Origin: Sphingobacteriales bacterium 44-15
GTDB lineage: Bacteria > Bacteroidota > Bacteroidia > Chitinophagales > Chitinophagaceae
Reading direction: 5' to 3'
Length of the DNA stretch: 64,000 nucleotides
Assembly: GCA_001899685.1 (NCBI GenBank)
Contig: MKWG01000024.1
Location: forward strand, 1 to 64,000
Part shown: piece after piece, positions 77 to 60,250 of the stretch
Layout: each line of letters opens with the position of its first letter
Numbering within the stretch: the first letter of the stretch is position 1
Position numbers and translations under genes: made by a program
The notes under the pieces: model-generated
The model's input: the letters and a program-made list of their open reading frames with translations, nothing else
The model's database searches: none
Told to the model about the DNA's origin: nothing

Positions 77-130
77 GTGAATGGTGAATAGACAATAGTG
101 AATAGTGAAACGTGAAAGGTGAGACAACCT
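77..130. repeat. Heptamer-phased GTGANNN repeat
   Basis: Between the BY-kinase gene and the epimerase gene. GTGA-initiated heptamers follow one another in register (GTGAATG, GTGAATA, GTGAAAC, GTGAAAG, GTGAGAC), with one GACAATA variant. It belongs to the dispersed intergenic family seen throughout the window. No open frame or T-tract terminator is visible. Confidence 0.8.
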
Positions 131-136
131 GATACC

Positions 137-2503
137 TCACACCTTCACCTTCTTCCCCTTCGTTTCTTCCGTATACCCGTAGCCGTACCCATAGCCATAC
201 CCGTAGCCATAACCATACCTGCCGCCGCCGGCTTTGATGCCGTTGAATACGATCGCCATATTTTTCAGCGGCTTTATCTTCAGTTGCTCGTCCATTTTTT
301 TGAGGTAGAAGCGGGGGGTAACGCCCTGGCGGATAATATACAGGGTGGCATCGCAGAGCGGTGAAATGATATAGGCATCCGTTACCGGGCTTACCGGGCA
401 GGTGTCTATGAGGATATAATCAAAATGCTGGTCAAGATAATCCAGCAGCTCATTCAGCCGCCCGTTCATGATCAGCTCGGAAGGATTGGGCGGTGTGGGC
501 CCTGAAGAGATGATGGACAGCCCGGGCTGATCCGGCACCGGCCGGATAATGTTTTCCGCTGTTTTTTCGCTGATAAAATACTGGGTGATGCCTGTCTCAC
601 GGGACATATGGAACACCTCGCTGAGCTTGGGCTTGCGGAGGTCCAGCTCTATCAGCACTACTTTTTTGCCTGCCAGTGCCAGGCTGATACCGAGGTTGGC
701 GCAGACAAAGCTCTTGCCTTCACCGGAGATGGAGGAAGTAACGAGGATGCGTTTCTTACGGGCATTGATGCCGAGGTATCCCAGGGAAGTGCGCAAATGC
801 CGGAACTGCTCGGCCGCAAGACTACGCCGTCCCTGGCCGATAACAATGGATGAGCCGGATACCGTTGTCTCCTGCACGATCTCGCCAAGGATCGGCGCCC
901 CGGTGCTTTTTTCAATTTCATCCCGCCGGGAAACCTCCCGGTTGAACAGTTCTTTACCTTCCACAATACCGATGCCCAGTACAAAAGCCAGTCCTATCGC
1001 TGCCAGCCAGATCAGCTTCCGTTTGGGGCTTACCGGGAGCTTACCGGCAATGGCCTGGTCAATGATGCGGCTGTCGGCCACGGTAGAGGAGTAGCTGAGC
1101 GCCGTTTCTTCCCGCTTCTGGAGCAGGAAGGTGTAAATATTGTTTTTGATGGCCTGCTGCCGGCTGATGTTCAGCAGCTCCCTTTCTTTCTGGGGCACAG
1201 TTTGCAGGATGCTGTTGTAGCGGCTGTTGCTCCGGTCGAGGTTGCGGATGCCTGCCTCAAGGCTGTGGCGCTGGTTGCGGATATTTTCCAGTATGCCGGG
1301 CTTCACCGCAGCGATCTGGTCTTCCAGCCCTTTCATAATGGCGTTGTTGGCGCCGGTAACGCCGCTCAGCATGATCCTTTTGCTTTCCAGCTCATAGAGC
1401 GACTGCAGCGACTGGAGGAGGACAGGATCGGTTACGCCCAGGGTTGCCGGCACAATGGCGGAATCCCTGCTTTCCCTGCTGCGCACATAAGACTCTACCT
1501 TATCCAGCACGGCAAGCTGCATATTCATCTCGGTGATCTTCTGGTCGGTAGCGCTTACATTGCTCAGGAACAACTGCCCCTGGGCGCTGAGGTCGATGAT
1601 CTTGTTCTTGGTGCGGAAATGCTCCAGCCCGTGCTCTACCGAATCCAGCTCGTTCACCACGTAGCGCAGCCTTTCGTCCACGAATCTCAGGGTATTGGAC
1701 GCCAGTTGGTTCTTGTCGCGGATAGCGGCATTGTTATAGGCAGCGATCCAGGTATTTAATATTTCTTTGCCGCGGCGGGGCACTGCATCGGTATATACAA
1801 AATTGATCACCGAAGCCACTTTGCTTACCGGGGTAACTTCAAGATTATTCAGCAGCGCTAATCCTACATCTTCAGGATTGGCCAAAGTAAAATATAGCTG
1901 GCGGTCAGATGATTCATGATTGTACCAGGGATTATCCAGGAAGCGGATCTCCCCATAGGGCAACCGGATCCAGTCCCCTGTTTTGTAAGGCTGTTTATCC
2001 AGTGTCACTGTGCTCCTGGCGGAATCGTATTGAAATAATATCTTTCCATCGCCTTCCGGCGCCTGCAGCGAATCGGGGTAGCGGGCCTCCACGATCACCG
2101 GCGAGTTGTGGAAGGCGGATGCATCTTTAATATTGCCCTCCTGCATTATGGGGGCATAGAGATGCAGCTCGGTAGCTACCTGCGTGGCAAGCGTGCGGGA
2201 CAGGATGACCTGGATCTCGTTTTCCACGTTTTTTTTATCGCCGAAAATATTCAGCGATTCCAGCAGTTGGGATTCGTCTATGCCGCTTTTGTCGTCCTTG
2301 ATCAGGATGCTGGCCTTTACCTGGTACAGGGGAGTGGCATAACGCAGGTACAGCCACCCGCCAATAATGCCCAGTACCAACAGCAGGGCAAACAGGGGCC
2401 ACCAGGGCAGGTAGCGGGCGGCAAGGTTCTGCAGCCTTTCACCGATGCTTATTTTTTCCTGCTCATCTTCTTTTTCTATCAACAGATCCTCGAGTTGCGA
2501 CAT
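137..2503 (-). CDS. Wzz-type chain-length protein fused to BY tyrosine autokinase (exopolysaccharide biosynthesis)
   Basis: A 788-residue inner-membrane protein. Residues ~34-53 and ~495-515 are hydrophobic segments that bracket a long periplasmic, partly coiled-coil Wzz/GNVR region. The cytoplasmic C-terminal domain is a bacterial tyrosine kinase: Walker A GEGKS at ~594-598, Walker A' IELDLRKP at ~618-625, Walker B ILIDTCP at ~697-703. The tail has eight tyrosines in strict Tyr-Gly alternation (~763-777), the expected autophosphorylation cluster, encoded by a 6-nt microsatellite (173-217). Family knowledge: such proteins control polymer length and export through cycles of autophosphorylation. 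It follows upxY by 157 bp on the same strand. The single-chain Wzz+kinase form is usual for Bacteroidota. Confidence 0.93.
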   Translation of the reverse strand: MSQLEDLLIEKEDEQEKISIGERLQNLAARYLPWWPLFALLLVLGIIGGWLYLRYATPLYQVKASILIKDDKSGIDESQLLESLNIFGDKKNVENEIQVILSRTLATQVATELHLYAPIMQEGNIKDASAFHNSPVIVEARYPDSLQAPEGDGKILFQYDSARSTVTLDKQPYKTGDWIRLPYGEIRFLDNPWYNHESSDRQLYFTLANPEDVGLALLNNLEVTPVSKVASVINFVYTDAVPRRGKEILNTWIAAYNNAAIRDKNQLASNTLRFVDERLRYVVNELDSVEHGLEHFRTKNKIIDLSAQGQLFLSNVSATDQKITEMNMQLAVLDKVESYVRSRESRDSAIVPATLGVTDPVLLQSLQSLYELESKRIMLSGVTGANNAIMKGLEDQIAAVKPGILENIRNQRHSLEAGIRNLDRSNSRYNSILQTVPQKERELLNISRQQAIKNNIYTFLLQKREETALSYSSTVADSRIIDQAIAGKLPVSPKRKLIWLAAIGLAFVLGIGIVEGKELFNREVSRRDEIEKSTGAPILGEIVQETTVSGSSIVIGQGRRSLAAEQFRHLRTSLGYLGINARKKRILVTSSISGEGKSFVCANLGISLALAGKKVVLIELDLRKPKLSEVFHMSRETGITQYFISEKTAENIIRPVPDQPGLSIISSGPTPPNPSELIMNGRLNELLDYLDQHFDYILIDTCPVSPVTDAYIISPLCDATLYIIRQGVTPRFYLKKMDEQLKIKPLKNMAIVFNGIKAGGGRYGYGYGYGYGYGYGYTEETKGKKVKV

Positions 2504-2577
2504 GGTAGGTGGTTAATGGTAAGAAATACGGATTAAAAAAGTGGTAAGGGATAAGGGGTAAGGTCTGCCGGAAACCT

Positions 2578-2735
2578 GAGGTGTGAAAGCAGCTTTGGGG
2601 TGTGGGCTTTGAGCCGATTGCCCACTGCTCATAGCCCATAGCTCATACCCGCTACCCCCGTCAGCCCCGGGCTGTGAGCTTTGGGCTTTGGGCTGCCAGC
2701 TCCTGGCTGATAGCCGGTTGCTCACTGCTCAACGC
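2578..2735. repeat. AGCNNNN heptamer-phased repeat running into the upxY 3' end
   Basis: Read on the minus strand, successive heptamers begin with AGC (AGCAGTG, AGCCAGG, AGCTGGC, AGCCCAA, AGCTCAC). The tract starts inside the last ~25 codons of upxY (stop at 2661) and continues ~85 bp past the stop into the upxY-BY kinase gap. It is a separate sequence family from the GTGANNN repeats but has the same 7-nt period. The short minus-strand frame 2513-2725 across it has no protein character. Confidence 0.75.
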
Positions 2736-3533: not shown

Positions 3534-3680
3534 ATTGAAATATGGTAATTGTCAGGTGGGTGAAGCGGAAAAAATGTTATGTCTTTATGATTTCTGTGAA
3601 GATAAAAACGACTTTGATGCATTAGCTAAAAAAACAATACATATCAAGAGCTATAAGTCAATGAGTTATATAGGTTTTTT
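3534..3680. other. Gene-free stretch between the upxY promoter and repeat array 1
   Basis: AT-rich DNA. The plus frame beginning at 3535 runs straight into the repeat array and has no recognisable protein features. I see no RNA gene or hairpin here. Confidence 0.5.
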
Positions 3681-4270
3681 GAACCACGGAGGCCGGGAGA
3701 ACACAGAGGTGCACAGAGGGGGAGTATGGGTTTGCTGTTTATCGTTTACCGTTGCGCTCGCCGCTCCTCTGCGCACGCTGCGAGAAACTTCTTTGAACCA
3801 CGGAGGCAGGGAGAACACGAAGGTGCACAGAGGACAGCAGTTTCTCGTTTGTCGTTTGACGTTTCTCGTTGCGCCCCGCCGCTCCTCTGCGCACGCTGCG
3901 TGAAACTTCTTTGAACCACGGAGGCAGGGAGAACACGAAGGTGCACAGAGGACAGCAGTTTCTCGTTTGTCGTTCGACGTTTCTCGTTGCGCCCCGCCGC
4001 TCCTCCGCGCGCGCTGCGAGAAACTTTTTTGAACCACAGAGGCAGGGAGAACACAGAGGTGCACAGAGGACAGCAGTTTCTCGTTTGTCGTTTGACGTTT
4101 CTCGTTGCGCCCCGCTGCTCCTCCGCGCGCTCTGCGTGAAACTTTTTTGAACCACGGAGGCAGGGAGAACACAGAGGTGCACAGAGGACAGCCGTTTGTC
4201 GTTTGTCGTTTCTCGTTGCGCCCGCTGCCCCTCCGCGCGCCCTGCGTGAAATTCTCTGCATGAAACTCCC
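3681..4270. repeat. Tandem array 1: five ~118-bp composite repeat units
   Basis: The landmark GAACCACGGAGG (GAACCACAGAGG in one unit) recurs at 3681, 3795, 3913, 4031 and 4149, giving periods of 114, 118, 118 and 118 bp. Each unit has three blocks: an ACCACGGAGG...CACAGAGG block, a heptamer block of TTTCTCG/TTTGTCG/TTTGACG, and a GC-rich block ending in GCTGCGTGAAAC. Units are nearly identical, so the array is young or homogenised. Open frames up to 214 aa cross it in several registers only because the repeat lacks stop codons. Units repeat without unique spacers, so it is not CRISPR. Confidence 0.92.
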
Positions 4271-6690: not shown

Positions 6691-6772
6691 GCGTGAGAAG
6701 TGAGACGATAAAGGTGAGATCCTCACGTTTCGCTTCTCACATCTCACGTTTGACGTCTCACCTCTGACATAA
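6691..6772. repeat. Inverted GTGANNN heptamer repeat between convergent genes
   Basis: The left half reads GTGAGAA, GTGAGAC, GATAAAG, GTGAGAT and the right half is complementary heptamers, so the tract can fold into a long imperfect stem that fills the gap between the two convergent gene ends. It has no T-tract. Its left half and the end GACATAAC are nearly identical to the repeat at 45036-45113, which shows common descent. Confidence 0.85.
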
Positions 6773-6774
6773 CG

Positions 6775-7452
6775 CTATCCGTTCTCTTCTCCCACCGCTC
6801 GATTCAAAAAATCAATAAGCGGCTGAATTGCTGAGAAGGCTTCAACCGATTGTTTCAGTAAGTCTTTTGAAGTAAGGGCTGTATCTGTAAGCGATGACAT
6901 TGCCACCCAGCTTTTCAACTTTAAAAATTCGGCTGCGGGGTTGTCTTTTGTGTATCCTTTGGGTACGTTAGTGAGCCGGATCTCATCTTCCCGGTCGAGT
7001 CCGGCGTATATGCCTGAAAATTTTTTGGAGTGGATGATCTTTTTAAATTCGTCGTAGCAGTAGTCAATCTCCTGTCTTATTTTTTGCGTTTCGGCAGGCA
7101 TGGGCATCCATATCCCTCCGCCGATAAAGCTGTTTCCCGGCTCAAGATGGAAATAGTAGCCGGCAAGCACGGATTTTTTTCCTCCTTTATTGATGCTGGC
7201 GGCAAAATTCTTTTTGTAAGGCGTCTTGTCCCTGCTGAAGCGGATATCGCGGTTGATGCGGAACAGGCAGCTTTTTGCCGTTAATGCAGCGACGGAAGGG
7301 TCTTTTTTGCCAAACTGCTCGATGAGCGCCTGGATGAAGTTTTCAAAATCTTTCTTCGCTTCATCGTATTTTTTCCTGTTGGCATCAAACCAGGGTTTGT
7401 TATTATTCTTTGCAAGTTGTTTTAAAAACAACAGCGTGGAAGATTGCAGCAT
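6775..7452 (-). CDS. DUF2461 family protein
   Basis: A 225-residue protein matching the DUF2461/TIGR02453 family: FLKQLAKNNNKPWFDANRKKY at the start, FRINRDIRFSRDKTPYKKNF in the middle, GGGIWMPMPAETQKIRQEI after it. The function is unknown. I took the ATG at 7452 (MLQSS...) rather than 7461, since family members start just before the LLFLKQL segment. It converges with the acyl-CoA dehydrogenase gene. No signal peptide or membrane segment is visible, so it is probably cytoplasmic. Confidence 0.88.
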   Translation of the reverse strand: MLQSSTLLFLKQLAKNNNKPWFDANRKKYDEAKKDFENFIQALIEQFGKKDPSVAALTAKSCLFRINRDIRFSRDKTPYKKNFAASINKGGKKSVLAGYYFHLEPGNSFIGGGIWMPMPAETQKIRQEIDYCYDEFKKIIHSKKFSGIYAGLDREDEIRLTNVPKGYTKDNPAAEFLKLKSWVAMSSLTDTALTSKDLLKQSVEAFSAIQPLIDFLNRAVGEENG

Positions 7453-7482
7453 AATGAGCAAAAATAATCAGAAGTTGCACGT

Positions 7483-7832
7483 AAAGAATTTCACGCAGAG
7501 CGCGCAAAGAAAGCAAAGGCGCAACGGTAAACGATAAACGTCAAGCGGCAAACCGCTGATCTCCTCTCTGTGCCCCTCTGTGTTCTCCGAGCCTCCGTGG
7601 TTCAAAAAAGTTTCACGCAGAGCACGCAAAGAAAGCAAAGGCGCAACGGTAAACGACAAACGAGAAACGTCAAACTGCTGTTCTCCTCTCTGTGCCCCTC
7701 CGTGTTCTCCGAGCCTCCGTGGTTCAAAGAAGTTTCACGCAGCGCGCGCAGAGGAGCGGCGAACGCAACGGTAAACGATAAACAGCAAACCCATACTCCC
7801 CTCCCTGTTCTCCCTGCCTCCGTGGTTCAACA
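7483..7832. repeat. Array 2: three ~122-bp composite repeat units, inverted relative to array 1
   Basis: TTTCACGCAG/TTTCACGC recurs at 7489, 7611 and 7733, a 122-bp period. Each unit carries the same three blocks as the 3681-4270 array but in reverse complement, ending in GCCTCCGTGGTTCAA. The two arrays therefore form inverted repeats around a ~3.2-kb segment holding marR, the acyl-CoA dehydrogenase and DUF2461. The frames that cross it have no protein features. Confidence 0.9.
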
Positions 7833-7836
7833 ACAA

Positions 7837-10202: not shown

Positions 10203-10265
10203 ATCGTGAAAGGTGAGATGTCAGGCGTGAAAATCTCACCGCTCACTTTTCACCTCTCACGTCTC
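10203..10265. repeat. Inverted GTGANNN heptamer repeat in the gyrB-araC divergent gap
   Basis: The left half reads GTGAAAG, GTGAGAT and the right half reads back as complementary TCAC heptamers. This is the one copy lying between two divergent starts, so a purely terminator role does not explain the family. Confidence 0.75.
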
Positions 10266-10300
10266 TCTCTTCTGTCATAAACTTGTCATTAATACAATGA

Positions 10301-11284: not shown

Positions 11285-11400
11285 TCACGGCTGCTGTTAA
11301 GCCGGTCAAATTACATTCTGTATGATATCGTGAGGGGTGAGATGTGAAACGTGAAAGGGTAAAAGCGTGCTTCTGGTCCGGTCTTGCTGAGATAACCAGG

Positions 11401-11478: not shown

Positions 11479-11739
11479 CAAGAGTGCAAGAATATTTAAT
11501 GGGAATGGCAAAAAATAAGAGAATGATGCTTTTGGAAGGGAATAGAATTTCGTCCTGAAGTTTCTTCTCACATCTCACGTTTCACATCTCACGTTTCACA
11601 TTTTGACATGCTAACCGTTTGCTGACCCAACCCACAGCCCATTCCTGACTTTAATCAGTTGATAACATGATTCTTTACGTTCCATCCAGACATGACGATA
11701 TTATGACAAAACACTGACGTAAACATGCCGGTTGTCCAT

Positions 11740-15981: not shown

Positions 15982-17897
<1,916 letters not shown>

Positions 17898-17902
17898 GAG
17901 AG

Positions 17903-17926
17903 GTGAATGGGCAATGGTGAATGGTG
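17903..17926 (+). repeat. Left arm of a 24-bp inverted repeat flanking the IVP gene
   Basis: It pairs with 18381-18404 at 22 of 24 positions. It is made of GTGAATG/GGCAATG/GTGAATG heptamers of the dispersed family and starts 5 bp after the hemB stop. Confidence 0.8.
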
Positions 17927-17998
17927 AATAGTTGCAAAATGGAGCGTAAATGTAAAACGATTATTTTGCGGATATTTCCTCATCTAAAAATATAACCT

Positions 17999-18364
17999 AT
18001 GTTTCTCAAACTCAATCACCAAAAGTTAGAAGTATATACCTATTCGAGATCACTTACATTAGCCTGTTACAAACTTACAAAAGCGTTACCGGCAGAGGAA
18101 AGATTCGGAATGATTTCTCAAATAAGAAGAGCTGCATTGTCAGTACACCTTAATATCGCAGAGGGCGCTTCCAAAAAATCTGAAGTAGAACGAAGAAGAT
18201 ATTATGAAATTTCAAGAGGCTCGATCGTAGAAGTGGATGCAGCATTAGATATAGCCAACGATTTACAATATTTGAATAACATTGATATGAAAGATTTAGA
18301 AGAAAAGATGATCAAAACATTTAAACTGTTGACAGGTTTAATATTATCCTGCTCAAAGCATTAA
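17999..18364 (+). CDS. Four-helix-bundle protein (23S rRNA IVP/S23 family)
   Basis: A 121-residue helical protein of the family first found inside 23S rRNA intervening sequences (TIGR02436-like): [20 protein letters not shown], then [21 protein letters not shown], then [19 protein letters not shown]. The function is unknown. It stands alone here, inserted between hemB and hemL, is visibly more A+T-rich than its neighbours, and is flanked by inverted heptamer repeats at 17903-17926 and 18381-18404. Together these suggest a mobilised cassette rather than a heme gene. Confidence 0.92.
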
Positions 18365-18380
18365 TAGAATGCCTGTCATT

Positions 18381-18404
18381 CACTATTCACCATTGCCTAT
18401 TCAC
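18381..18404 (-). repeat. Right arm of the inverted repeat flanking the IVP gene
   Basis: Inverse of 17903-17926 with two mismatches. Further TCAC heptamers continue to the hemL start at 18421, so the repeat also forms the hemL leader. Confidence 0.8.
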
Positions 18405-18420
18405 TATTTACTCATTCACC

Positions 18421-19695
18421 ATGATCTACCAGTCCAGCAAATCCTTATTCGAACGCGCGCAGCGCTCCATTCCGGGCGGTGTAAATTCCCCGGTGCGCGC
18501 CTTTAAAAGTGTAGGCGGCACACCGCTGTTCATCACCAGAGCCAAAGGAGCATACCTGTATGATGCCGATGGCAACGAGTATATAGACTTCATCAACTCA
18601 TGGGGTCCTATGATACTGGGGCATGCTTATGAGCCTGTGATAAAAGCCATACAGGAGAGAGCAGCTTTATCCACCTCTTTCGGTGCGCCCACCGAGCTGG
18701 AGATTGAAATAGCCGAGCTCATCAAGAGTATAGCCCCCGGTATAGATCTTATCAGGATGGTCAGCAGCGGCACCGAAGCCTGTATGAGCGCTATCCGGCT
18801 GGCGCGCGGCTATACAGGGAAAAACAAATTTATAAAGTTTGAAGGCTGTTATCATGGTCATGCCGATTGTTTCCTGGTAAAAGCCGGAAGCGGGGTTGCT
18901 ACCTTCAACATCCAGGCTGTACCGGGAGTAACCGCAGGCGTATCGGCTGATACACTTACCTGCGCCTATAATGATATCGAAGCGGTTGAACAACTGGTGA
19001 AGGAGCATACCAATGAGATTGCCGCCATCATTATAGAACCGGTGGCGGGGAACATGGGTTGCATACTGCCGGGCAGTAATTATCTTGAGGCTTTGCGCAA
19101 AATATGCGACAGGGAGCATATCCTCCTCATTTTTGATGAGGTAATGACCGGCTTCAGGCTTGCACCCGGTGGCGCACAGGAGAAATTCAATATAAAAGCT
19201 GATATAGTCACCTATGGAAAGATCATCGGCGCAGGTATGCCGGTAGGCGCATTTGCCGCCAGGCGGGAAATCATGCAGCATATTGCTCCCCTGGGCAGTG
19301 TATACCAGGCAGGCACTTTGAGCGGTAATCCATTAGCCATGGTCGCAGGGTTTACGCTGCTTAAAACATTAAAAGATACTCCCGGCATTTATGGGGAGCT
19401 GGAAGCCAAAGGAGCGTACCTGGAAAAAGGATTGCGTGAAGTATTGGAGAAGAAAGGGTTTCCTGTATGGGTCAACCGGATGGGCAGCATGATCAGCGTA
19501 CATTTCAGCAGCCATGAGGTAAAAGATTTTGCCAGCGCCTCCGCTGCCGATATTGCAACTTTTAATAAATTTTTTCACCATATGTTAGATTCCGGCGTAT
19601 ATTTGCCGCCATCTGCATTTGAATCCTGGTTTATCAGTAATGCCATTTCCTATCAAGACCTGGACCGTACCATCAGCGCTGCGTCCCGTTTTTGA
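18421..19695 (+). CDS. hemL: Glutamate-1-semialdehyde 2,1-aminomutase
   Basis: A 424-residue PLP enzyme converting glutamate-1-semialdehyde to 5-aminolevulinate. [11 protein letters not shown] at the N-terminus is diagnostic. FDEVMTGFR and [16 protein letters not shown] place the PLP lysine at ~267, and [11 protein letters not shown] is also conserved. It completes the C5 route with HemA. It is separated from hemB by the IVP insertion and from hemH by 71 bp with a perfect hairpin. Confidence 0.97.
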
Positions 19696-20819: not shown

Positions 20820-20846
20820 TTTAATAGTGTTGCGTTAACGTCAAAT

Positions 20847-20902
20847 GTGAGAGGCGAGACGTGAGAGGTGAAATGTGAAAGGTGAGACGTGAGACGTGAA
20901 AG
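20847..20902. repeat. Eight uninterrupted GTGANNN-type heptamers
   Basis: Eight consecutive 7-mers in perfect register, seven starting GTGA and one GCGA (examples GTGAGAG, GTGAAAT, GTGAGAC). This is the clearest proof of the 7-nt phase. Complementary TATCGTTTCTC-type sequence follows to ~20940, so a partial inverted arrangement is present. It lies between hemH and rsgA. Confidence 0.9.
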
Positions 20903-21968: not shown

Positions 21969-22110
21969 CACTGTTGTCCGGTTAAAAATATTATAGAACC
22001 GCTCAAACCCTTTACTATAGCAGGTTCTGCTCCCTCTCTGCGGGGAGAGGGCTGGAGTGAGGCGATTAACTGAATTTCAAATGCTTGTTACAATTTGTCG
22101 GACAACAGTG
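21969..22110 (+). mobile_element. MITE-like 142-bp element with 12-bp perfect inverted ends
   Basis: It begins CACTGTTGTCCG and ends CGGACAACAGTG, exact inverses, and is flanked by 9-bp direct repeats TATTTTAAT. It encodes nothing. The internal core GAGGCGATTAACTGAATTTCA is shared in parts of up to 20 nt with copies at 4796-4866 and 38314-38464. The structure is that of a non-autonomous transposable element moved by a transposase encoded elsewhere (inference). Confidence 0.85.
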
Positions 22111-25027: not shown

Positions 25028-27070
25028 ATGTCAGAAAAAAGCTTTCGCCCTTTCATTGCACCTGAAACCAGGATGGCAGAATTTACCGTCAAAGCTGTTG
25101 TGACGGGCGCTGTTTTCGGGATCATCTTTGGCGCCGCCACCGTATACCTGGCGCTCAAAGCAGGGCTCACCGTATCTGCATCCATTCCTATTGCAGTGAT
25201 GGCAATAACATTGAGCCGGGCTTTCCTGAAAACAACCATTCTTGAGAATAATATCATACAAACAACAGGATCGGCCGGCGAGAGCATAGCTGCCGGAGTG
25301 GTATTTACGCTGCCCGGTTTTTTATTTCTCAGCGATAAGGCAAATGCAGATTATTTTAATTACGTAACTATCCTTACACTGGCTGTGCTTGGCGGCATAT
25401 TGGGCACATTAATGATGATACCGCTTCGTCGCCCGTTGATAGTAAAAGAACACGATGCTTTACCCTATCCCGAAGGTACTGCCTGCGCTTCCGTATTAAA
25501 AGCCGGCGAAAAGGGAGGAGATGTAGCCAAAACCGCATTTGCCGGACTGGGGTTTGCTTTGCTGTATGCGTTGCTCCAGAAAATATTACATGTCATTGCA
25601 GAAACGCCCGAATTTATGACCAGGCAGGTAAATAAGTTTCTACCCTCTGCAAAGATCAGTGGTGAGATCACGCCTGAGTATCTGGGTGTGGGGTATATTA
25701 TCGGGCCAAAAATTGGCGGGGTGCTCGTTGCCGGTAGTGTGCTGGCTTCTTTTGCACTTGTGCCCCTGCTCGCCACGCTGGTGCCTCCTGATGCCATTGC
25801 CGGGCAGCTCGTAAAGCTCGGGCTGCTGGACGATATCTCCAAAGCAGGAGGACGGGGCGGATGGAATCCCGACACGCAGAGCTTTAATGATTTTTCTACG
25901 GCAATATACTGGGCATATATCAGGCAGATAGGCGCCGGCGCAGTGGCGGCAGGAGGGTTCATCACATTATTAAAAACCCTGCCCACCATTATTTCCTCCT
26001 TCAAAAGCAGCGTAGGCTCTCTTAAAGGCAGGGGAGAAGAAGCCCAGGCACAACTGCGCACGGAAAAAGACCTGAGCATAAAAGTCGTGGGATTTGGCAG
26101 CCTGGCATTGGTGCTGATCGTATCCGCATTACCATTTATTCCCGGAGATAATTTTTTCAGCCGGCTGCTGGTAGGACTTCTCATCGTGGTATTCGGTGCC
26201 TTATTTGTGACCGTATCCTCCAGGATCGTCGGGCTCATCGGCTCTTCCAACAATCCCATCTCGGGCATGACCATCGCTACCATCCTCGGCACCTGCCTGA
26301 TCTTCATCGCAGTGGGCTGGACAGGGAGCGCCTATGAACCTATGGTGCTCGTGGTAGGCGGTATGATCTGTATTGCTGCAGCCAATGCCGGCGCAACCTC
26401 CCAGGATCTTAAAACAGGGTATATCGTTGGCGCCACGCCGCGCTACCAGCAGATGGCATTGTTCATCGGGGCAATTGTTTCTTCGCTGGCTATCGGCGTT
26501 ACCATTAAAGTACTTGATACACCAACACCCGAAATGCTGGCACAGGGTATCCATCACGCTATTGGTCAAACTACCTATGCCGCACCACAGGCAACGTTGA
26601 TGGCTACCCTCATTAAGGGAGTATTATCGTTTAACCTTGACTGGCAGTATGTGCTCGTTGGCGTATTCATCGCTATTGTGGTGGAGCTCTGTGGTATAAA
26701 AGCATTGTCGTTTGCCATCGGTTTGTATCTTCCGCTGGCGACCACGCTGCCTATATTCATTGGGGGCGCTATAAGAGGGCTTGTTGACTGGCAGCAAAAA
26801 AGAAAAGGAGAATATACAACGCCTGAGGAGGAAGACCTGGGCAAAGGTAACCTGTTTGCTACCGGGCTTGTCGCCGGCGGCGCCATTGCCGGAGTGATCG
26901 TAGCCTTCCTGTCGGTAAACGGCACTATTGCAAAAGCGCTGGCTAAGATCAACCTGGAAGAAGCGTTGAGCAGCATGCTGGGCGGCGCATTAGGGTATGA
27001 GATCCTCGGTGTGCTGTTCTTTGCGGCACTGGGCTTGCTGCTTTATCGCGTGGCGGGACGTGAGAGGTGA
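25028..27070 (+). CDS. OPT-family oligopeptide transporter
   Basis: A 680-residue polytopic membrane protein with ~14-16 hydrophobic segments. EFTVKAVVTGAVFGIIFGAA, then NNIIQTTGSAGESIAAGVVF, then EHDALPYPEGTACA, then GSSNNPISGMTI, are hallmark OPT segments. Bacterial members import peptides or, in some cases, metal chelates; the substrate is not evident. It stands alone, convergent with the helicase gene, with a heptamer repeat between the two ends. Confidence 0.93.
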   Translation: MSEKSFRPFIAPETRMAEFTVKAVVTGAVFGIIFGAATVYLALKAGLTVSASIPIAVMAITLSRAFLKTTILENNIIQTTGSAGESIAAGVVFTLPGFLFLSDKANADYFNYVTILTLAVLGGILGTLMMIPLRRPLIVKEHDALPYPEGTACASVLKAGEKGGDVAKTAFAGLGFALLYALLQKILHVIAETPEFMTRQVNKFLPSAKISGEITPEYLGVGYIIGPKIGGVLVAGSVLASFALVPLLATLVPPDAIAGQLVKLGLLDDISKAGGRGGWNPDTQSFNDFSTAIYWAYIRQIGAGAVAAGGFITLLKTLPTIISSFKSSVGSLKGRGEEAQAQLRTEKDLSIKVVGFGSLALVLIVSALPFIPGDNFFSRLLVGLLIVVFGALFVTVSSRIVGLIGSSNNPISGMTIATILGTCLIFIAVGWTGSAYEPMVLVVGGMICIAAANAGATSQDLKTGYIVGATPRYQQMALFIGAIVSSLAIGVTIKVLDTPTPEMLAQGIHHAIGQTTYAAPQATLMATLIKGVLSFNLDWQYVLVGVFIAIVVELCGIKALSFAIGLYLPLATTLPIFIGGAIRGLVDWQQKRKGEYTTPEEEDLGKGNLFATGLVAGGAIAGVIVAFLSVNGTIAKALAKINLEEALSSMLGGALGYEILGVLFFAALGLLLYRVAGRER

Positions 27071-34664: not shown

Positions 34665-34677
34665 TTAATGCTGCAAA

Positions 34678-38273: not shown

Positions 38274-38313
38274 ACACGACCGTTGCCACAAAAAACATTT
38301 CAATATTTTATTT

Positions 38314-38464
38314 CACTATTGCCTGCCCGACAAATATGAATAAGCGATTGAAATTCAGTTAATCGCCTCATCCCGGACCTCTTCCTGCCGGCAGGCAGGC
38401 TCGTGGAGAGGGTGCAGAACCTTCTGTCGTAAAGGGTTTCATTGATTTCAAGTTCTTTTAACCG
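38314..38464 (-). mobile_element. Copy C of the ~142-bp MITE-like element
   Basis: Read on the minus strand it follows the 21969-22110 copy through GGTTAAAA, ACCCTTTAC, AGGTTCTGC, CCCTCTC and GAGGCGATTAACTGAATTTC, and ends TTTGTCGGGCA...CAATAGTG. One end keeps a CACTATTG version of the inverted end; the other is lost where it abuts the epimerase stop. It lies between convergent genes. Confidence 0.78.
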
Positions 38465-39480: not shown

Positions 39481-39660
39481 TTGCGTGAAATACAATACCC
39501 GCAGCGATTGCTACGGTGCAATGAGCGCAGCGATCTCTTCTTTGCGGCCGCTGCGTGAAACCATTTGAACCACAATGCATCGGGAACTAAGTATATGCAG
39601 CAATTCCCCGCCGCTGTGAAATGAGCTTTCACATCTCACCTTTCACGTCTCACAGAATAA
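39481..39660. repeat. Composite repeat remnants between the epimerase and glutathione peroxidase genes
   Basis: GCGTGAAA...GCTGCGTGAAACC with GAACCACAA resembles a broken ~120-bp unit, and 39620-39660 is a TCACATCTCACC heptamer tract. No gene is visible. Confidence 0.6.
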
Positions 39661-44306: not shown

Positions 44307-45008
44307 ATGAAAAAAAATTTTATTATGGGTTCAATCTGGATCGTTTCATTAATTTTTGTGGGTATCAGTATGCTGGTGAGCATGCAGCTAAAGGGAAAGT
44401 TTGCCAGATACAGCAAAGTAGGCATAGCAAGCGGGCTAACCGGCAGGCAGGTAGCCGAAAAGATGTTAAAAGAAAATGGAATATATGATGTGACCGTGAA
44501 TATGTCAGATGGATTTTTGACAGATCATTATAATCCGCTCAATAAGACCGTGAACCTAAGCCCTGATGTGTACAACAGCAGTTCGGTGGCTGCCGCTGCA
44601 GTAGCGGCTCATGAATGTGGTCATGCCGTGCAGCACTCCACCTCTTATCCCTGGCTGATGCTGAGGAGCAGGCTGGTACCGGTGGTACAATACAGCTCCC
44701 TGCTGGTGCAATGGGTGCTTATAGGCGGGATTTTACTTATTAAGGTGTTCCCGTCGCTTTTGCTGATAGGCATTATTCTCTTTGCGCTCACTACCATTTT
44801 TTCGGTAATAACGCTTCCTGTAGAGTTTGATGCGAGCAAACGGGCGCTGGCATGGTTGCAGCATACCAATGTTACCAGCGCGCAGGAGTATCCTATGGCA
44901 AAAGATGCTTTGAAATGGGCAGCCATGACCTATGTAGTGGCAGCCATTGCTTCAATAGTTACACTGGCACAGTATATACTGATCTACTCCAATAACCGGA
45001 GAAGCTAG
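44307..45008 (+). CDS. Neutral zinc metallopeptidase, membrane-bound (YugP-like)
   Basis: A 233-residue protein with an N-terminal membrane segment, the zinc motif AAHECGHAVQH (HExxH), and two to three further membrane segments including a YSSLLVQWVLIGGILLIKVF stretch. SGLTGRQVAEKMLKENG and YNPLNKTVNLSPDVYNSSS precede the active site, the order of the YugP/Zn_peptidase_2 family. The role is probably membrane protein quality control (inference). The ATG at 44325 is an alternative start. It converges with the MBL gene over a heptamer repeat. Confidence 0.9.
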   Translation: MKKNFIMGSIWIVSLIFVGISMLVSMQLKGKFARYSKVGIASGLTGRQVAEKMLKENGIYDVTVNMSDGFLTDHYNPLNKTVNLSPDVYNSSSVAAAAVAAHECGHAVQHSTSYPWLMLRSRLVPVVQYSSLLVQWVLIGGILLIKVFPSLLLIGIILFALTTIFSVITLPVEFDASKRALAWLQHTNVTSAQEYPMAKDALKWAAMTYVVAAIASIVTLAQYILIYSNNRRS

Positions 45009-45035
45009 TGCTATATCAACAATAATTTGTCTGTT

Positions 45036-45113
45036 TCTTTGTGAGAAGTGAGACGATAAATGTGAGGCCCTCACATTTGTCGTCTGTCGTTTCACGTTTG
45101 ACATAACACTAGA
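45036..45113. repeat. Inverted GTGANNN heptamer repeat between convergent genes
   Basis: Left GTGAGAA, GTGAGAC, GATAAAT, GTGAGGC; the right side reads back as complementary heptamers up to GACATAACAC. Close sequence match to the copy at 6691-6772, ~38 kb away. Confidence 0.87.
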
Positions 45114-45852
45114 ATTTCCAGACAGGATTTTTTACATCATGATAAAACAGGAAGGTCCAGTGATCTTCCTGTCCTTTCTTCCACCATTCCTGCCTTAGCT
45201 CCATACATTTTTTGCCATCATAATCATACTTGGCAATAAATTTATTTTTCATCTGCCCCAGCTGCGGCGCATCATCCGCCCCGAAAAAAATGATCTCATT
45301 ATCTTCTCTTATGGTAAACACCTGGTGATAAGGAGAATGGGCGCCCGTTAATTCATAGCTGATATAGCCGTCAATCTCTCCATTGCCCTCAATAAAAACA
45401 ACATTGTCAGCGTCCTTTAATATTTCAATCTCTTCAGGTATATAGGAAGGCAACCCTTTCTCCAACGCAAAATCCAGCTCCTGCTGCTGCACATAATAAG
45501 TAGCGGAAGGAAAGCTCAGGAAATAGCGGTCAAGAATATTGTCTTTCATGCTTATACCACCGGCATGGTCTTTATGCAGGTGGCTCATTAAAACTTTAGT
45601 CACATCAGAGGGGCTGATGCCATGGTCAATAAGATGCTGATGGATCTGCAAAATGCCATTTTCATTGACGAACCCTAATCCTGTATCGAGGAGCAAAATA
45701 TCCTTTGATGTAATGATGACGAAAGGCTGGATCTCTACCAGCAGGCTTCCCCTGTTTCTTTGCTGAAGATCATCCGCATCCGGATTGAATGGAATAAATA
45801 ATTTTGAATGATCTATAGTGAACGTGCCTTCGCTAAGCGGAATAATTTTCAT
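45109..45852 (-). CDS. MBL-fold metallo-hydrolase
   Basis: A 247-residue metallo-beta-lactamase-fold enzyme. The metal motif is SHLHKDHAGG (HxHxDH), with later ligands in LTGAHSPYHQV and FFGADDAPQ. The layout resembles the AHL-lactonase-like branch, but the substrate is not evident. There is no signal peptide. A TACCTTTG box (45864-45857) ends 4 nt before the ATG, so the mRNA may be leaderless. Confidence 0.9.
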   Translation of the reverse strand: MKIIPLSEGTFTIDHSKLFIPFNPDADDLQQRNRGSLLVEIQPFVIITSKDILLLDTGLGFVNENGILQIHQHLIDHGISPSDVTKVLMSHLHKDHAGGISMKDNILDRYFLSFPSATYYVQQQELDFALEKGLPSYIPEEIEILKDADNVVFIEGNGEIDGYISYELTGAHSPYHQVFTIREDNEIIFFGADDAPQLGQMKNKFIAKYDYDGKKCMELRQEWWKKGQEDHWTFLFYHDVKNPVWKF

Positions 45853-45856
45853 GCAG

Positions 45857-45864
45857 CAAAGGTA
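45857..45864 (-). promoter_or_regulatory. -7 box TACCTTTG of the MBL gene
   Basis: Exact TAnnTTTG match four nt before the start codon; predicts a leaderless or near-leaderless transcript. Confidence 0.55.
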
Positions 45865-45971
45865 TTAAGCGATGAGCGTTTTTACAGTTGTTTTCTGCCG
45901 ATTACTATCCTGTCCAATGAATACTCTTGCCGACATATCATAATTTCAGATCTCAAATTTCAGATCTCAAA

Positions 45972-47315
45972 TCATCTCAGTACCATCTGCCTGTCTTTAT
46001 CAAGCCTCAAAAGTATAAAGATCATAATGCTGAAGGTAACCAGCGATAAGCCGCCATAGCTCACGAACGGCAGTGGTATCCCGATCACCGGTGCAAGCCC
46101 CATAGTCATGCAGAGGTTAATGGCAATATGGAAGAAAAGCACCGATGCCACACCATAGGCATAACAACGGCTGAAGGTACTTCGTTGTCGTTCGGCAATG
46201 GTCACAATCCGGAACAGCAATATAATATATATGCCCAGGAATACCATGCTACCTGCAAAGCCAAAGCCTTCCCCTATAGTGCAAAAGATAAAGTCAGTAC
46301 GTTGCTCCGGCACAAAGGAATAGCGTGTCTGCGTGCCTTTCAGAAGCCCTTTCCCGTACCAGCCCCCGCTGCCAATGGCAATTTTACTTTGCCTTACATT
46401 ATAGTCTCCGTCATCCTTTTTGGGTGCACTGTTCTTGGCAATATCTTCTGCCGCTGCGGCATCTTTGGGCACATAATCTTTACCGATCGTATCATAAATG
46501 CGTTTTACCTGATAGGGCTGCAGCACATGATCAAAAATAAACGGAACCGCAAAGCGCTGGATACCCACGCAGATAGCCCATATCCCGATAATTCCTGCCA
46601 GCACAGACTTATGCCTTTTGATCTGTCTTCGCATAAGGTAGATCACGAAGGCAGCAATGCCTGTCAGTGTAAGTGCGAGCACGTTGGGATCCACCACAAG
46701 CGTAGCTACCACTAATATGGCAAAAGAAAATCCTATGATCAATATTACAGCGGGGAGCCCTTCGCGGAACATGACCAGGAAAAAAGAAAAATATACCAGT
46801 GCAAGCCCTGTTTCACTTTGTAATATCGCAAGAATAGCGGGGGCAATTACAATTGCAGCAGCGATCATCTGGGAGCGGCTCTTTGTAAAATCAGTCTCCA
46901 TGCGCGACAGGTATTTGGAAAGCGCGAGGTTGGCAAAGAGAATACAAAGCTGTATGGGCTGCAATTGTAATGCACCTCCAAACTTAATGATAGACTTGGT
47001 GCCTTTAATATTAGAATGAAACGGGAATACCAGGATCAGCAGCAGCATTCCGAAGGCATACCATAAATTGGCTGTTGCGGTAAAGAACTTGCTGTCCATC
47101 AATAGTACTGCCACACCCGCCACAATCGAGACCAGGAAAAAGGCAGCCTGTTTGCTGTAATCCGTTTTGAAAGAAAGAAAACTGCGTACTATATCATCCC
47201 CTTCCCTGTAAGTGGCGGCGAAAATGCTTGTGATGCCTATGCAGCACAACAGAATGTACAGCCATAATACAAGACCGTCGATCCCTTTAGACATTTCTGA
47301 ATTGCTCCTTATCAT
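45972..47315 (-). CDS. rodA: Rod-shape SEDS glycosyltransferase RodA
   Basis: A 447-residue polytopic SEDS protein with ~10 membrane segments that polymerises peptidoglycan strands. Signatures are FSHSNIKG-type loop (FPFHSNIKGTKSIIKFG), QPIQLCILFANLALSKYLSR, GSGGWYGKGLLKGTQTRYSF and PLPFVSYGGLSLVTFSIM. Its ATG overlaps the PBP2 stop by 4 bp, so the enzyme pair is translationally coupled. It is the last gene of the mre cluster. RodA rather than FtsW is supported by the neighbours. Confidence 0.95.
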   Translation of the reverse strand: MIRSNSEMSKGIDGLVLWLYILLCCIGITSIFAATYREGDDIVRSFLSFKTDYSKQAAFFLVSIVAGVAVLLMDSKFFTATANLWYAFGMLLLILVFPFHSNIKGTKSIIKFGGALQLQPIQLCILFANLALSKYLSRMETDFTKSRSQMIAAAIVIAPAILAILQSETGLALVYFSFFLVMFREGLPAVILIIGFSFAILVVATLVVDPNVLALTLTGIAAFVIYLMRRQIKRHKSVLAGIIGIWAICVGIQRFAVPFIFDHVLQPYQVKRIYDTIGKDYVPKDAAAAEDIAKNSAPKKDDGDYNVRQSKIAIGSGGWYGKGLLKGTQTRYSFVPEQRTDFIFCTIGEGFGFAGSMVFLGIYIILLFRIVTIAERQRSTFSRCYAYGVASVLFFHIAINLCMTMGLAPVIGIPLPFVSYGGLSLVTFSIMIFILLRLDKDRQMVLR

Positions 47316-50924: not shown

Positions 50925-51950
50925 CTATCTCATTACAAAAGGATATCGCTGATAGTTCTTCAATGCAATTCCTGTACCTCTCACTACACTTTTCAACGGG
51001 TCGTCGGCTACATGCACCGGCAATTTAATTTTCTGGCTGAGTCTTTTGTCCAATCCCCGAAGCAATGCCCCTCCACCGGTAATATAAATGCCCCGGCGGT
51101 AAATATCCGAAGCCAGTTCCGGGGGAGTTGTTTCCAATGCCTTAAGAATAGCTTCTTCTATCTTGAAAATACTTTTATCCAGTGCTTCTGCCACTTCCTG
51201 GTAGCTCACCATGATCTGCTTGGGAATACCGGTTACCAGGTCGCGACCGTTTACCGGCAGGTCATCCGGGGGCACTTCAAGATCCTTCATTGCCGCTCCT
51301 ATTTGTATCTTGATCTGCTCAGCAGTTCTTTCTCCTATCAGCAGCGAATGGTAGCGCCTGAGCGCTTCCATAATGTCTGCAGTAAATTCATCCCCGGCTA
51401 TGCGTATGGACTGGTCGCAAACAATACCTGCCAGGGCAATGACTGTTATACCGGTAGTACCGCCGCCAATATCCACGATCATATTTCCCACCGGTTCTTC
51501 TACGTCAATGCCTATACCCAGCGCCGCGGCCATAGGCTCATGCAGCAGGTATACCTCTTTGGCGCCCGCCTGCTCCGAACTGTCGCGCACCGCTCTTTTC
51601 TCCACTTCGGTAATGCTTGAAGGAATGCATATCATCATCCTCCAGCTTGGAGGGAATAAAGGCTTTTTTGGGTAGATCATTTTGATCAGTTCCCGTATCA
51701 TCAGTTCGGCTGCATTAAAATCAGCGATCACCCCGTCTTTCAGCGGGCGGATCGTGCGAATGCTTTCATGGGTTTTTTCGTGCATCATCAATGCCTTCTT
51801 GCCCACGGCAAGTACATTCTTAGGATTGTTCCTGTCCAGTGCTATGATAGAAGGTTCGTTTACTACAATCTCATCATTGTGAATAATAAGCGTGTTAGCC
51901 GTTCCCAGATCAATAGCTATTTCCTGTGTAAACCAGTTGAAAAGACCCAT
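50925..51950 (-). CDS. mreB: Rod shape-determining actin homologue MreB
   Basis: A 341-residue cytoskeletal ATPase. The actin-fold phosphate loops AIDLGTANTLI and VDIGGGTTGITVIAL, and the late ITGGGALLRGLDKRLSQ, identify it. FNWF near the N-terminus is a plausible membrane-binding hydrophobic patch. It is first of the five-gene rod-shape operon mreB-mreC-mreD-mrdA-rodA, so the organism is expected to be rod-shaped (inference). Confidence 0.97.
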   Translation of the reverse strand: MGLFNWFTQEIAIDLGTANTLIIHNDEIVVNEPSIIALDRNNPKNVLAVGKKALMMHEKTHESIRTIRPLKDGVIADFNAAELMIRELIKMIYPKKPLFPPSWRMMICIPSSITEVEKRAVRDSSEQAGAKEVYLLHEPMAAALGIGIDVEEPVGNMIVDIGGGTTGITVIALAGIVCDQSIRIAGDEFTADIMEALRRYHSLLIGERTAEQIKIQIGAAMKDLEVPPDDLPVNGRDLVTGIPKQIMVSYQEVAEALDKSIFKIEEAILKALETTPPELASDIYRRGIYITGGGALLRGLDKRLSQKIKLPVHVADDPLKSVVRGTGIALKNYQRYPFVMR

Positions 51951-56760: not shown

Positions 56761-56870
56761 TAGGCAACGGCCCTCACGTCTCACGTTTGTCGTTTCACTA
56801 TTGACCATTCACTATTGCCTATTCACCTTTATCCCCTGCCTGCCGGTAGGCAAGTCTCACTTTTCACGAT
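56761..56870. repeat. TCAC/GTGA heptamer repeat downstream of icd
   Basis: Complementary-strand heptamers (for example GTGAAAC, GACAAAC, GTGAGAC read on the minus strand) lead into TTCACTATTGCC units and a CCTGCCGGTAGGCA palindrome. Confidence 0.75.
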
Positions 56871-58926: not shown

Positions 58927-59025
58927 CCCACCTTTAATAAGGTATAGTGGGCCCTGAATTTCCTGAAATTATTTGATCAGAAACAATCCCGGAAGCCATC
59001 TCCGACAGTAAAAGATAGTATACAG

Positions 59026-60138
59026 ATGTACAAAGTAACCTTCAACAACAAAAACAAAGTTTTTTTCAATACGTTAAAAGCTAATGTAGACCAGTACTTC
59101 ACAGACAACAACCTGAAGAAGACCGGAAACTGGAAATTGTACCTTAAGACCATAATCCTTATTCCTGCAGCAACGGGGATCTATATTTCCCTGCTGTTTG
59201 CCCCGCTTACTCCTTTCTGGGGGATCGTATTAAGCGGTCTTTTTGGTTTCACCCTCGCCAGCATCGGCTTTAATGTAATGCACGATTCCTGCCACGGCAG
59301 CTACTCCTCACGGGGATGGGTAAACGATATTATGGGGTTAACCATGAATGCGTTGGGCGGGAACGCTTTTTTCTGGAAGCTGAAGCACAATATTGTGCAT
59401 CATACCTATACTAATATTGATGGTATTGATGATGACATCAATAACAAACCTTTCATGCGGGAATGCTCCACGCAAAAATGGTATCCGCCACACCAGTACC
59501 AGCATTATTATATGTTCGTCCTGTATGGGTTCACTTCCCTTTTCCTGCTGTTCATCACAGATTACATTAAATACGTTACCAAAAAAGTGTACACCACTCC
59601 GCTGAAGCCCATGGATTTTAAGGAACACCTTGTTTTCTGGGTTTCAAAGGCTTTATATGTCGGCTTTACTATTGTGCTGCCCATTATGGTTGTGGGATGG
59701 GAAGCCTGGCTGGTAGGATTCCTGGTAATGCATTTTGTATTGGGGCTGACACTGGCGCTGGTATTCCAGCTTGCTCATGTAGTAGAGCATGCAGAATTTG
59801 ACGTAGCGGGCATAGAGCCCAAAAAGATAGAGAACGAATGGGCTATTCACCAGGTAAAAACCACTGCAGATTTTGGTGCAGAAAGCAAGCTGCTTTCCTG
59901 GTTTGCCGGAGGTCTGAATTTCCAGATAGAACATCATTTGTTCCCGCGTATCAGTCATATTCATTACCCTGCGCTCAGGAAGATCGTTGAAAAAACCTGC
60001 AATGATTTCGGTTTGCGGTACAACTACTTCCCTACATTAGGAGCCGCAATAGCTTCTCATTTCCGTTTTATGAGGCAGTTAGGGCAAAGACCGGTGCCGA
60101 ACATGAACGGTAACCTGCCGCAGGACGCTGCTGCGTAA
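59026..60138 (+). CDS. Membrane fatty-acid desaturase (linoleoyl-CoA desaturase-like)
   Basis: A 370-residue di-iron membrane enzyme. The three histidine boxes are HDSCH (86-90), HNIVHH (121-126) and QIEHH (~300-304); a glutamine in the third box is typical of front-end desaturases. There is no fused cytochrome b5 domain, so it needs an outside electron donor such as ferredoxin. About four hydrophobic segments surround the boxes. It would introduce double bonds into acyl chains and so tune membrane fluidity (inference). Confidence 0.94.
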   Translation: MYKVTFNNKNKVFFNTLKANVDQYFTDNNLKKTGNWKLYLKTIILIPAATGIYISLLFAPLTPFWGIVLSGLFGFTLASIGFNVMHDSCHGSYSSRGWVNDIMGLTMNALGGNAFFWKLKHNIVHHTYTNIDGIDDDINNKPFMRECSTQKWYPPHQYQHYYMFVLYGFTSLFLLFITDYIKYVTKKVYTTPLKPMDFKEHLVFWVSKALYVGFTIVLPIMVVGWEAWLVGFLVMHFVLGLTLALVFQLAHVVEHAEFDVAGIEPKKIENEWAIHQVKTTADFGAESKLLSWFAGGLNFQIEHHLFPRISHIHYPALRKIVEKTCNDFGLRYNYFPTLGAAIASHFRFMRQLGQRPVPNMNGNLPQDAAA

Positions 60139-60164
60139 AGTAAGGTTTCCCCGCAGAGAGTGAT

Positions 60165-60250
60165 CATGAATGGTGGAAACGTGAATGGCAGACGTGAAAT
60201 GATAGACGGGAAACTGTAAACTTCCTTCGTGAAACTTTGTGCCCTTATGC
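60165..60250. repeat. Degenerate heptamer repeat between convergent genes
   Basis: GTGAATG, GTGAAAT and GACGGGAAACTG-type units, then CGTGAAACTTTGTGCC, in the gap between the desaturase and amidohydrolase genes. More degenerate than the other copies. Confidence 0.6.

Follow-up and report, generated by a model that had tools for sequence, protein, structure and literature searches.

Within a 64,000-nt stretch of the genome of Sphingobacteriales bacterium 44-15 (positions 1 to 64,000 of contig MKWG01000024.1, GenBank assembly GCA_001899685.1; hereafter the window), two intergenic tracts of 7-nt repeats, at 17903 and 18381, enclose in inverted orientation a gene (17999-18364) for a four-helix-bundle protein of the S23/IVP family. 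This architecture recurs across phyla, with arms that match each other within a locus, unit sequences that go with the protein clade and periods that cluster on the protein tree, and tracts of the window's type are present in one congener and absent from another. We consider it probable that the heptamer tracts represent S23/IVP inverted repeats together with derivatives lacking an open reading frame (ORF), that unit and period are kept within protein lineages, and that recognition by the protein aids the persistence and seeding of the arrays. The parts of this reading differ in strength. The derivation of the tracts from S23/IVP elements is very likely, and the ORF-less tracts are probably derivatives of them, some with ends resembling terminal inverted repeats (TIRs). 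That the protein itself reads the units seems to us just short of an even call, and that it drives their spread is possible though on balance doubtful.

An S23/IVP gene between inverted heptamer arrays

The product of gene 17999-18364 matched PF05635 (E 6.6e-31, 107.1 bits against a curated cut-off of 33.8), TIGR02436 (four helix bundle protein; E 1.9e-27, 95.6 bits against a cut-off of 24) and PDB entry 2gsc (E 2.2e-18). The PDB relatives 2gsc and 2rld have five chains deposited each. The neighbouring genes were named by NCBIfam as hemB (16902-17897) and hemL (18421-19695), and the element lies between them, outside any rRNA gene. In the predicted RNA fold of 17895-18425, the two arrays pair as a terminal closing stem (z -4.44). 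The tract pair is orthologous in two congeners, G003 and G007; the gene carries an internal stop in G003 and is mostly deleted in G007, where both arrays remain. The whole genome (6.0 Mb in 46 contigs, the window lying on contig C24) holds 7 PF05635 matches, against 158 tracts in a 1.035-Mb sample of it. PADLOC assigned the window's IVP protein to no defence family, and the IVP protein of locus L183 had no match among phage records at E 1e-3. The first-pass annotation of the window had reported neither this gene between 17903 and 18381 nor the palindromic arm order and gene-end position of the tracts; our own first gene list also lacked the gene, which was counted there as intergenic.

In other genomes of the order, IVP copies commonly have inverted arrays on both sides, with a sequence that differs by locus (by eye). 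The loci named from many phyla are the best 80 of 580; the search used an alignment built from seven IVP proteins within the order, several with AGC flanks, and the sample is not random. Their 160-nt flanks held 1162, 961 and 653 repeated runs at lags 7, 14 and 21, compared with 240, 206 and 199 after shuffling and 230, 181 and 234 in distal windows. Lag-7 flank arrays were present at 57/80 loci versus 7/80 in distal windows (the 57 include L259, where a stretch of N counts at every lag), and lags 8, 9 and 15 were slightly raised (z 3.2-4.0). When gaps of the same loci were compared, 50 of the 83 gaps adjoining an IVP gene had lag-7 arrays versus 17 of the 90 other gaps; the corresponding figures were 10/83 versus 4/90 for lag 8 and 5/83 versus 0/90 for lag 9. 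On cyanobacterial plasmids (26 records matched), lag-7 arrays stood at 10 of the 12 IVP loci examined, an 8-nt array at one and neither at one. Three such plasmid loci (L383, L391 and L393) have their IVP genes among CRISPR-Cas genes (flanked by cas6 and cas4, or by cas10 and a Cmr3 gene), with 7- or 8-nt arrays.

The two arms of a locus belong together. Among 121 loci compared (131 loci, 5 dropped), the left array scored 16.5 when compared with the right array of its own locus in reverse complement, 8.9 with those of other loci and 11.3 with the same arms unreversed. Within the clade of the window's protein, whose units are of the GTGA type, the scores were 21.0 versus 13.0 (n=28), which 0 of 5000 permutations reached. 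C is scarce in the sense-strand array (0.115, versus 0.275 for G), and G exceeds C in 112/139 loci.

Unit sequence follows the protein. For this comparison, 146 family genomes were sampled evenly out of a larger set, and those encoding a relative of the window's protein (E<=1e-28) were assigned to the clade. At least one exact GTGA pattern occurred in all 32 genomes with the clade versus 37/114 without it, and at least 8 hits in 31/32 versus 18/114 (counts for the window's own genome, G000, include overlapping hits). Within genera, the gene-bearing member had more GTGA hits in 11/11 contrasts. GTGA-type arrays stood on both sides at 24/29 clade loci examined, the expression admitting GNNA variants; of the other five, L330 has a GGCAATC-like variant, L319 and L332 a left match only, L322 reversed polarity near the gene, and L321 was misread at a contig end (the script misread the ORF at L321 and at L326). 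Dialects occur: the window uses GTGAATR, the units next to the gene in G014 are GTGAATC, and G019 has GTGAAAG. Several GTGA-clade copies in other genera (L305, L306, L309, L310, L317, L318 and L320) apparently precede, like the window's copy, a hemL-like gene (by eye), a place that may be old or repeatedly targeted.

A second unit family behaves similarly. AGC arrays (AGCNNTC) were found in 13/13 genomes with an AGC-flanked copy versus 11/36 without (p 9.5e-6), among 49 genomes counted for 50 of the 80 loci that had been picked by eye for clear flanks before counting; these figures use exact gene ends, with L207 carried over, and earlier labels at fixed positions had given 11/11 versus 13/38. 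In one Blastocatellia genome, 13 close AGC-array pairs picked from the list were all of the same polarity. Period also follows lineage: 134 of 195 IVP rows had a clear 7-nt array and 26 a clear 8-nt array, while 11 reached the same score at lag 5, 6, 10 or 11. On a tree of 157 proteins (of the 195 rows, 35 were left out for want of a clear period and 3 as poor), the 8-nt label needed 15 changes versus 24.5 when shuffled, with 0/500 shuffles as low. The period of seven is therefore not universal, since related arrays elsewhere can be 8-nt.

A complete element consists of a heptamer array, the four-helix-bundle S23/IVP gene and the same array inverted, and under the mechanism that we propose each protein lineage would tend to hold its own unit sequence and period, mostly 7 nt and in some 8 nt; several sequence families in one genome would therefore obey one period. 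The protein may recognise its own units and so fix unit and period, and it may help arrays to persist and to give rise to further ORF-less palindromes at the ends of genes, in the way proposed for RAYT proteins and REP sequences. Exchange between aligned tracts could keep different units in one register (cf. 32777-32917), and the part of the GTGA set with TIR-like ends probably moves by another route. The idea that the period reflects a copying mechanism or a protein reading one repeat per 7 nt has thereby gained a named candidate, S23/IVP with its lineage-specific arrays, with binding and copying as conjectured activities.

Several observations weigh against this reading. GTGA-rich genomes exist without a cognate copy: when every PF05635 match at E<=1e-6 was examined, none of the copies was GTGA-flanked on both sides in G080 (203 hits, 0/7 copies), G125 (40 hits, 0/11; L336 has a lone TCAC pair further downstream), G126 (33 hits, 0/6) or G095 (20 hits, its 1 copy). 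G003 and G007, with 176 and 103 GTGA hits, have the broken and mostly deleted hem-locus copies described above, their other copies not all being covered; in G018 and some others, IVP copies were covered only in part. G114 and G112 do have a GTGA-flanked copy, found outside the E 1e-18 list and on one side only in G112, and in G112, G099 and G042 the reversed control pattern also counts high. Gene loss with surviving repeats would explain array-rich genomes that lack a cognate copy. Conversely, IVP genes without GTGA arrays are common, e.g., in G009 (6 matches, 0 hits) and G021 (7, 0), as expected if clades differ.

Protein and unit similarity correlate weakly over all loci (Mantel r 0.145, 0/300 permutations as high) and without the GTGA clade (r 0.133, 3/300); in these data and in the GTGA-clade comparison, an array was called by a loose score in 139/151 loci. 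The arms matched clearly (score >=15) in 111/195 rows, and the period tree is built on few columns, leaves many forks open and has a bootstrap that did not settle. Flanks of the other IVP copies in the window's genome ranked 8, 19 and 23 of 139 in predicting its remaining lag-7 words, which is supportive and not sharp. Arm mismatches were wobble-compatible in 145 cases and not so in 151; the arms thus show no RNA wobble preference, and RNA-level selection on them was rejected. Finally, association alone fits both an IVP that makes arrays and an IVP that lives in arrays.

A period of seven and the anatomy of the tracts

The 7-nt phase of intergenic DNA is real. In the window's intergenic set (11.3 kb in 37 pieces, genes being called by a home-made combination of ORFs and a codon score), counts of 4-nt runs over lags 3-24 stood 13-16 standard deviations (sd) above first-order shuffles at lags 7, 14 and 21; the next strongest lag, 9, reached 2.7 sd. 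By single-base matches, lags 3, 5 and 9 were slightly raised (about 4 sd, versus 10 at lag 7). Against shuffles, the window's coding DNA showed no lag-7 excess, and multiples of 3, including 21, were raised there. The autocorrelation proposed in the first-pass annotation as a check was run on the 1.035-Mb sample, where lags 7, 14 and 21 had z values of 40, 37 and 18 instead of collapsing to the shuffled level; lags 4, 5, 10, 11 and 13 showed no excess, and lags 28 (z 4, unmasked only) and 8 (z 3) a small one. Because the signal survived masking of GTGA tracts (z 19, 14 and 8), several repeat families must share one period, as had been claimed; the residue is carried by words that include CTGA, CAGC, ACCT, CAGG, CTTA and AAGT.

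All 14 GTGA/TCAC sites listed earlier had lag-7 runs and in-register units, the weakest being 30505 and 39620, and the AGC block at 2578 likewise proved 7-periodic (Table 1). The copies at 6691 and 45036, described as near-identical over their left halves, were confirmed as related, with 80% identity over 69 nt. Other details needed correction. The eight heptamers at 20847-20902 are in register, although one of them is GCGAGAC and only seven are GTGA units. CTTTGCG at 15841 lies outside the 7-nt families, with 0 lag-7 runs and 8 at lag 9.

Table 1. Heptamer tracts and the S23/IVP element in the window
Feature	Position	Strand	Remarks
ORF-less GTGA tract	74-125	+	
AGC-type heptamer tract	2578-2710		lag-7 runs 16; the genome's S23/IVP copy on contig C2 (L184) has AGC-type flanks
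ORF-less heptamer palindrome	6693-6777		right-end CTA (TAG on minus) is the stop of minus-strand gene 6775-7461
ORF-less heptamer palindrome	10206-10275		
Single-arm GTGA tract	11329-11361	+	
Single-arm tract	11566-11601	-	mismatch-free 14-nt repeat over 11568-11601
Left heptamer array of S23/IVP element	17903-17930	+	GTGAATG GGCAATG GTGAATG GTGAATA; lag-7 runs 10; orthologous in two congeners; pairs with right array in predicted fold
23S_rRNA_IVP / four-helix-bundle (S23) gene	17999-18364	+	121 aa; PF05635, TIGR02436 and PDB 2gsc matches
Right heptamer array of same element, inverted	18377-18420	-	TRF 18377-18422; orthologous in two congeners
Eight in-register heptamers from 20847	20838-20902	+	seven GTGA, one GCGA
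Palindrome in convergent gap	27052-27112		stop codon (27068-27070) of OPT gene lies in a GTGA unit
Weak palindrome	30507-30560		
Longest palindrome, convergent gap	32777-32917		GTGAATR-type and GTGARAC-type units in one register
Single-arm tract	39626-39653	-	
Dispersed palindromic element of ~105 bp	45002-45114		TAGTGYTATGTCAA-like ends, heptamer arms; occupies the whole of a convergent gap, between its two stop codons
Tract with both unit types in register (by eye)	56769-56830	-	

A trained profile of the unit reads G[T/A][G/C]A-R-A/T-N, with position 5 almost never a pyrimidine, and covers about 11 kb of the 1.035-Mb sample. Among the 158 tracts there, 88 are two-armed, and the GTGA arm precedes the TCAC arm in 88/88. 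In stretches of the two congeners, one tract has the order +-+- and one +-+, and neighbouring palindromes can therefore adjoin. The median distance of tracts was 28 nt from stop codons versus 99 from starts, and convergent gaps carried 44 tracts for 83 gaps, tandem gaps 91 for 411 and divergent gaps 18 for 104. Own arms had a mean pairing energy of -27.2 versus -23.2 kcal/mol for swapped arms (79 tracts, near-copies kept in). The element at 45002-45114 belongs to a dispersed ~105-bp family that recurs at no fewer than 19 further places in the genome with 82-94% identity, and the aligned copies carry TAGTGYTATGTCAA-like ends. The comparison with related genomes that had been suggested was made for G003 and G007 (73-84% identity, longer shared blocks): some tracts are present in one genome and absent from another, and others are common to them in altered form.

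Alternative explanations

The first alternative is replication slippage with a preferred 7-nt step, set by the contact length of the polymerase, in which S23/IVP genes merely insert into arrays or survive there. Among long simple repeats, heptanucleotides are reported to be the commonest class in most genomes, and a polymerase-contact idea has been put forward (Mrazek 2007, as cited in PMC4679880). Mismatch-free 14-nt and 28-nt repeats do occur, one copy of the dispersed element on contig C2 seems by eye to be one unit longer, and the four GTGA-rich genomes without a GTGA-flanked copy also fit. Slippage alone, however, predicts neither units with some positions variable and others constant, nor arms that are matched reverse complements around one gene family, nor the clustering of period 8 on the protein tree, nor a unit that follows the protein clade within genera. 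We regard it as unlikely.

The palindromes might instead be host regulatory hairpins, either terminators or 3' mRNA stabilisers in place of classical terminators. The enrichment in convergent gaps and the closeness to stop codons are what such hairpins would show, and the element at 45009-45108 stands at a place that in G003 and G007 is taken by a T-tailed hairpin (T-rich; by eye). A crude, insensitive scan found terminator-like sites in 3/38 convergent gaps with a tract versus 13/44 without, yet the same scan gave little difference in tandem gaps (4/82 versus 32/341). The aligned copies have no T run after the arms (by eye), in disagreement with intrinsic terminators, and in two G003 insertions a terminator-like hairpin persists beside the new tract (by eye). 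Given the persistence of these hairpins and the nearly flat tandem-gap scan, we rejected the view that the tracts chiefly replace terminators. In tandem gaps the single arms favour neither strand (25 to 18, near-copies kept), and Rho utilisation sites were rejected on the same count. The hairpin account, which leaves the link to one gene family unexplained, has a slim chance.

Another possibility is that all GTGA tracts are miniature inverted-repeat transposable elements (MITEs) of a DDE transposon, presumably IS630-like, and that the IVP gene plays no role. The sequence TAGTGYTAWGTYAA occurs 66 times in the genome versus 0 for the reversed control, and stands at 54/246 tract ends (<=2 mismatches) versus 0 in shuffles. 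Several ~105-bp copies have TA at both ends (by eye), a possible target duplication, and G003 has insertions that are absent from G007. On the other hand, 192/246 tract ends lack TAGTGYTAWGTYAA, the listed occurrences include no facing pair about 1-2 kb apart (such a transposase was not searched for), the flanks of the window's IVP gene have no such ends (by eye), and the arrays of other phyla would be unexplained. The MITE account is insufficient for all GTGA tracts, a role that we think even less probable than that of host hairpins, and may hold for a subset: the part with TIR-like, TA-bounded ends has probably turned into a miniature element of second order, mobilised in trans by a transposase.

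Two further candidates have a negligible chance. Dispersal of the palindromes by a Y1 tyrosine transposase, as in systems of repetitive extragenic palindromic (REP) sequences and REP-associated tyrosine transposases (RAYTs), could draw on the 3 Y1_Tnp matches in the genome, one of which is separated by 1.2 kb from a dispersed-element copy. Yet in G019, with its 366 GTGA hits, no Y1_Tnp match was found at E 1e-3, and in G014 (248 hits) there was a single one at 8e-5; the absence in G019 speaks strongly against RAYT as the mover, a lead that we dropped. The unit could also owe its period to service as a stop-codon cassette: GTGA holds TGA, 7 is 1 modulo 3 and three GTGA units therefore stop all frames, and the end of a tract or element is the neighbour's stop at 6775-6777, 27068-27070 and 45006-45008. 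Other non-multiples of 3 would serve as well, and the lack of excess at lags 4, 5, 10, 11 and 13 refutes the cassette as the reason for seven.

Relation to known systems and further repeats

To our knowledge, bacterial heptamer repeats have no accepted origin, and S23/IVP proteins, for which structures have been solved (2gsc, 2rld), have no known function. If the two are linked, each gains a testable explanation: a named protein would have its own flank as predicted ligand, the repeats that a genome holds could be predicted, and one period over many sequences would have a reason. Such arrays may at present be taken wrongly for regulatory sites or CRISPR-like arrays. Short tandemly repeated repetitive (STRR) sequences are the heptamer repeats of cyanobacteria, and the window's tracts are of this type, i.e., tandem 7-nt units in intergenic DNA.

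That no system of this kind had been described in Bacteroidota, as the first-pass annotation had it, was too strong, given that heptamer repeats of cyanobacteria, Beggiatoaceae and Bacteroidetes, including TAACTGA, appear in passages of MacGregor 2015 (PMC4679880). Those repeats share with ours the 7-nt unit, a mostly intergenic position, sometimes several families per genome and a patchy distribution across phyla. The partners proposed in the abstract of that paper are S1, Csp and Csr proteins and not S23/IVP, which is the candidate partner here, with 7-nt arrays at 10/12 cyanobacterial plasmid IVP genes.

The closest precedent is the intervening sequence (IVS) of 23S rRNA. In PMC4990558, an S23 element in the 23S rRNA of one species is called selfish, with a 28-bp terminal stem and, before the S23 ORF, a set of heptameric repeats reported to be one unit longer in some strains than in others. 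The protein family, the terminal inverted repeats as a stem with the ORF in the loop and the heptamers before the ORF are alike, whereas the present element sits between protein-coding genes, is heptameric in both arms and follows a pattern that extends across phyla and protein lineages. Among the hits listed from the open-licence PubMed Central literature, we found no paper tying heptamer arrays to S23/IVP across genomes, that single-species study being the nearest. The 23S rRNA IVP is also named in a figure legend of a CRISPR survey (PMC10910872).

REP repeats are thought to depend on RAYT genes, and REPtrons, as outlined in PMC3733652, combine a gene with inverted palindromic flanks, gene-less copies near gene 3' ends and repeat-specific gene families. 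The layout is shared here with IVP as partner: the repeats flank the gene in inverted order and occur alone elsewhere; unlike in REP/RAYT, the protein is a four-helix bundle instead of a tyrosine transposase, and the arrays are built of 7-/8-nt units. In PMC10053308, PF05635 is said to resemble Avd of diversity-generating retroelements. A bolder view, which we think rather unlikely, makes S23/IVP proteins repeat readers that, each with a lineage-specific 7-/8-nt unit and a host copying enzyme, would extend arrays one unit at a time and seed gene-end palindromes, a transposase-free class of mobile repeat present in many phyla and at the common origin of cyanobacterial, Beggiatoaceae and Bacteroidota heptamers. 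Given the reported Avd kinship, a copying role is conceivable, and reverse transcription would be the first guess under the repeat-reader view.

Other repeats accompany the tracts. A CTTGCCTACCGGCAGGCAGG-like palindrome lies in or beside heptamer tracts as if inserted (window ~56834-56854; C2:210177 and C2:396270 of the same genome). An element of ~118-122 bp (window 3675-4252, 7489-7833 and 34675-34764) forms arrays and single copies in which GNNAAAC heptamers stand between CACGGAG/CGCAAAG-like units of other spacing, and has inverted copies 3.9 kb apart with 94% identity over 114 nt. Its ~118- and ~122-bp arrays had been assigned to the 7-nt families; lag 7 is raised in them (40 and 15 runs, summed over several copies) together with lags 10 and 9 (15 and 18), and they are therefore not purely 7-periodic. 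Another dispersed element has inverted copies at 22030-22104 and 38313-38448 (77%), a copy at C3:195775-195885 of the same genome, 214 bp from a Y1 transposase match, and at least one match in G004. The product of 50925-51950 is 99.4% identical in G003 and G007, those of adjoining genes about 73-84%. A 14-nt repeat, AATTTCAGATCTCA, at 45930-45980 lies partly in and partly beside the gap 45853-45971, whose counterpart in both congeners holds different, CAAATCT-like repeats.

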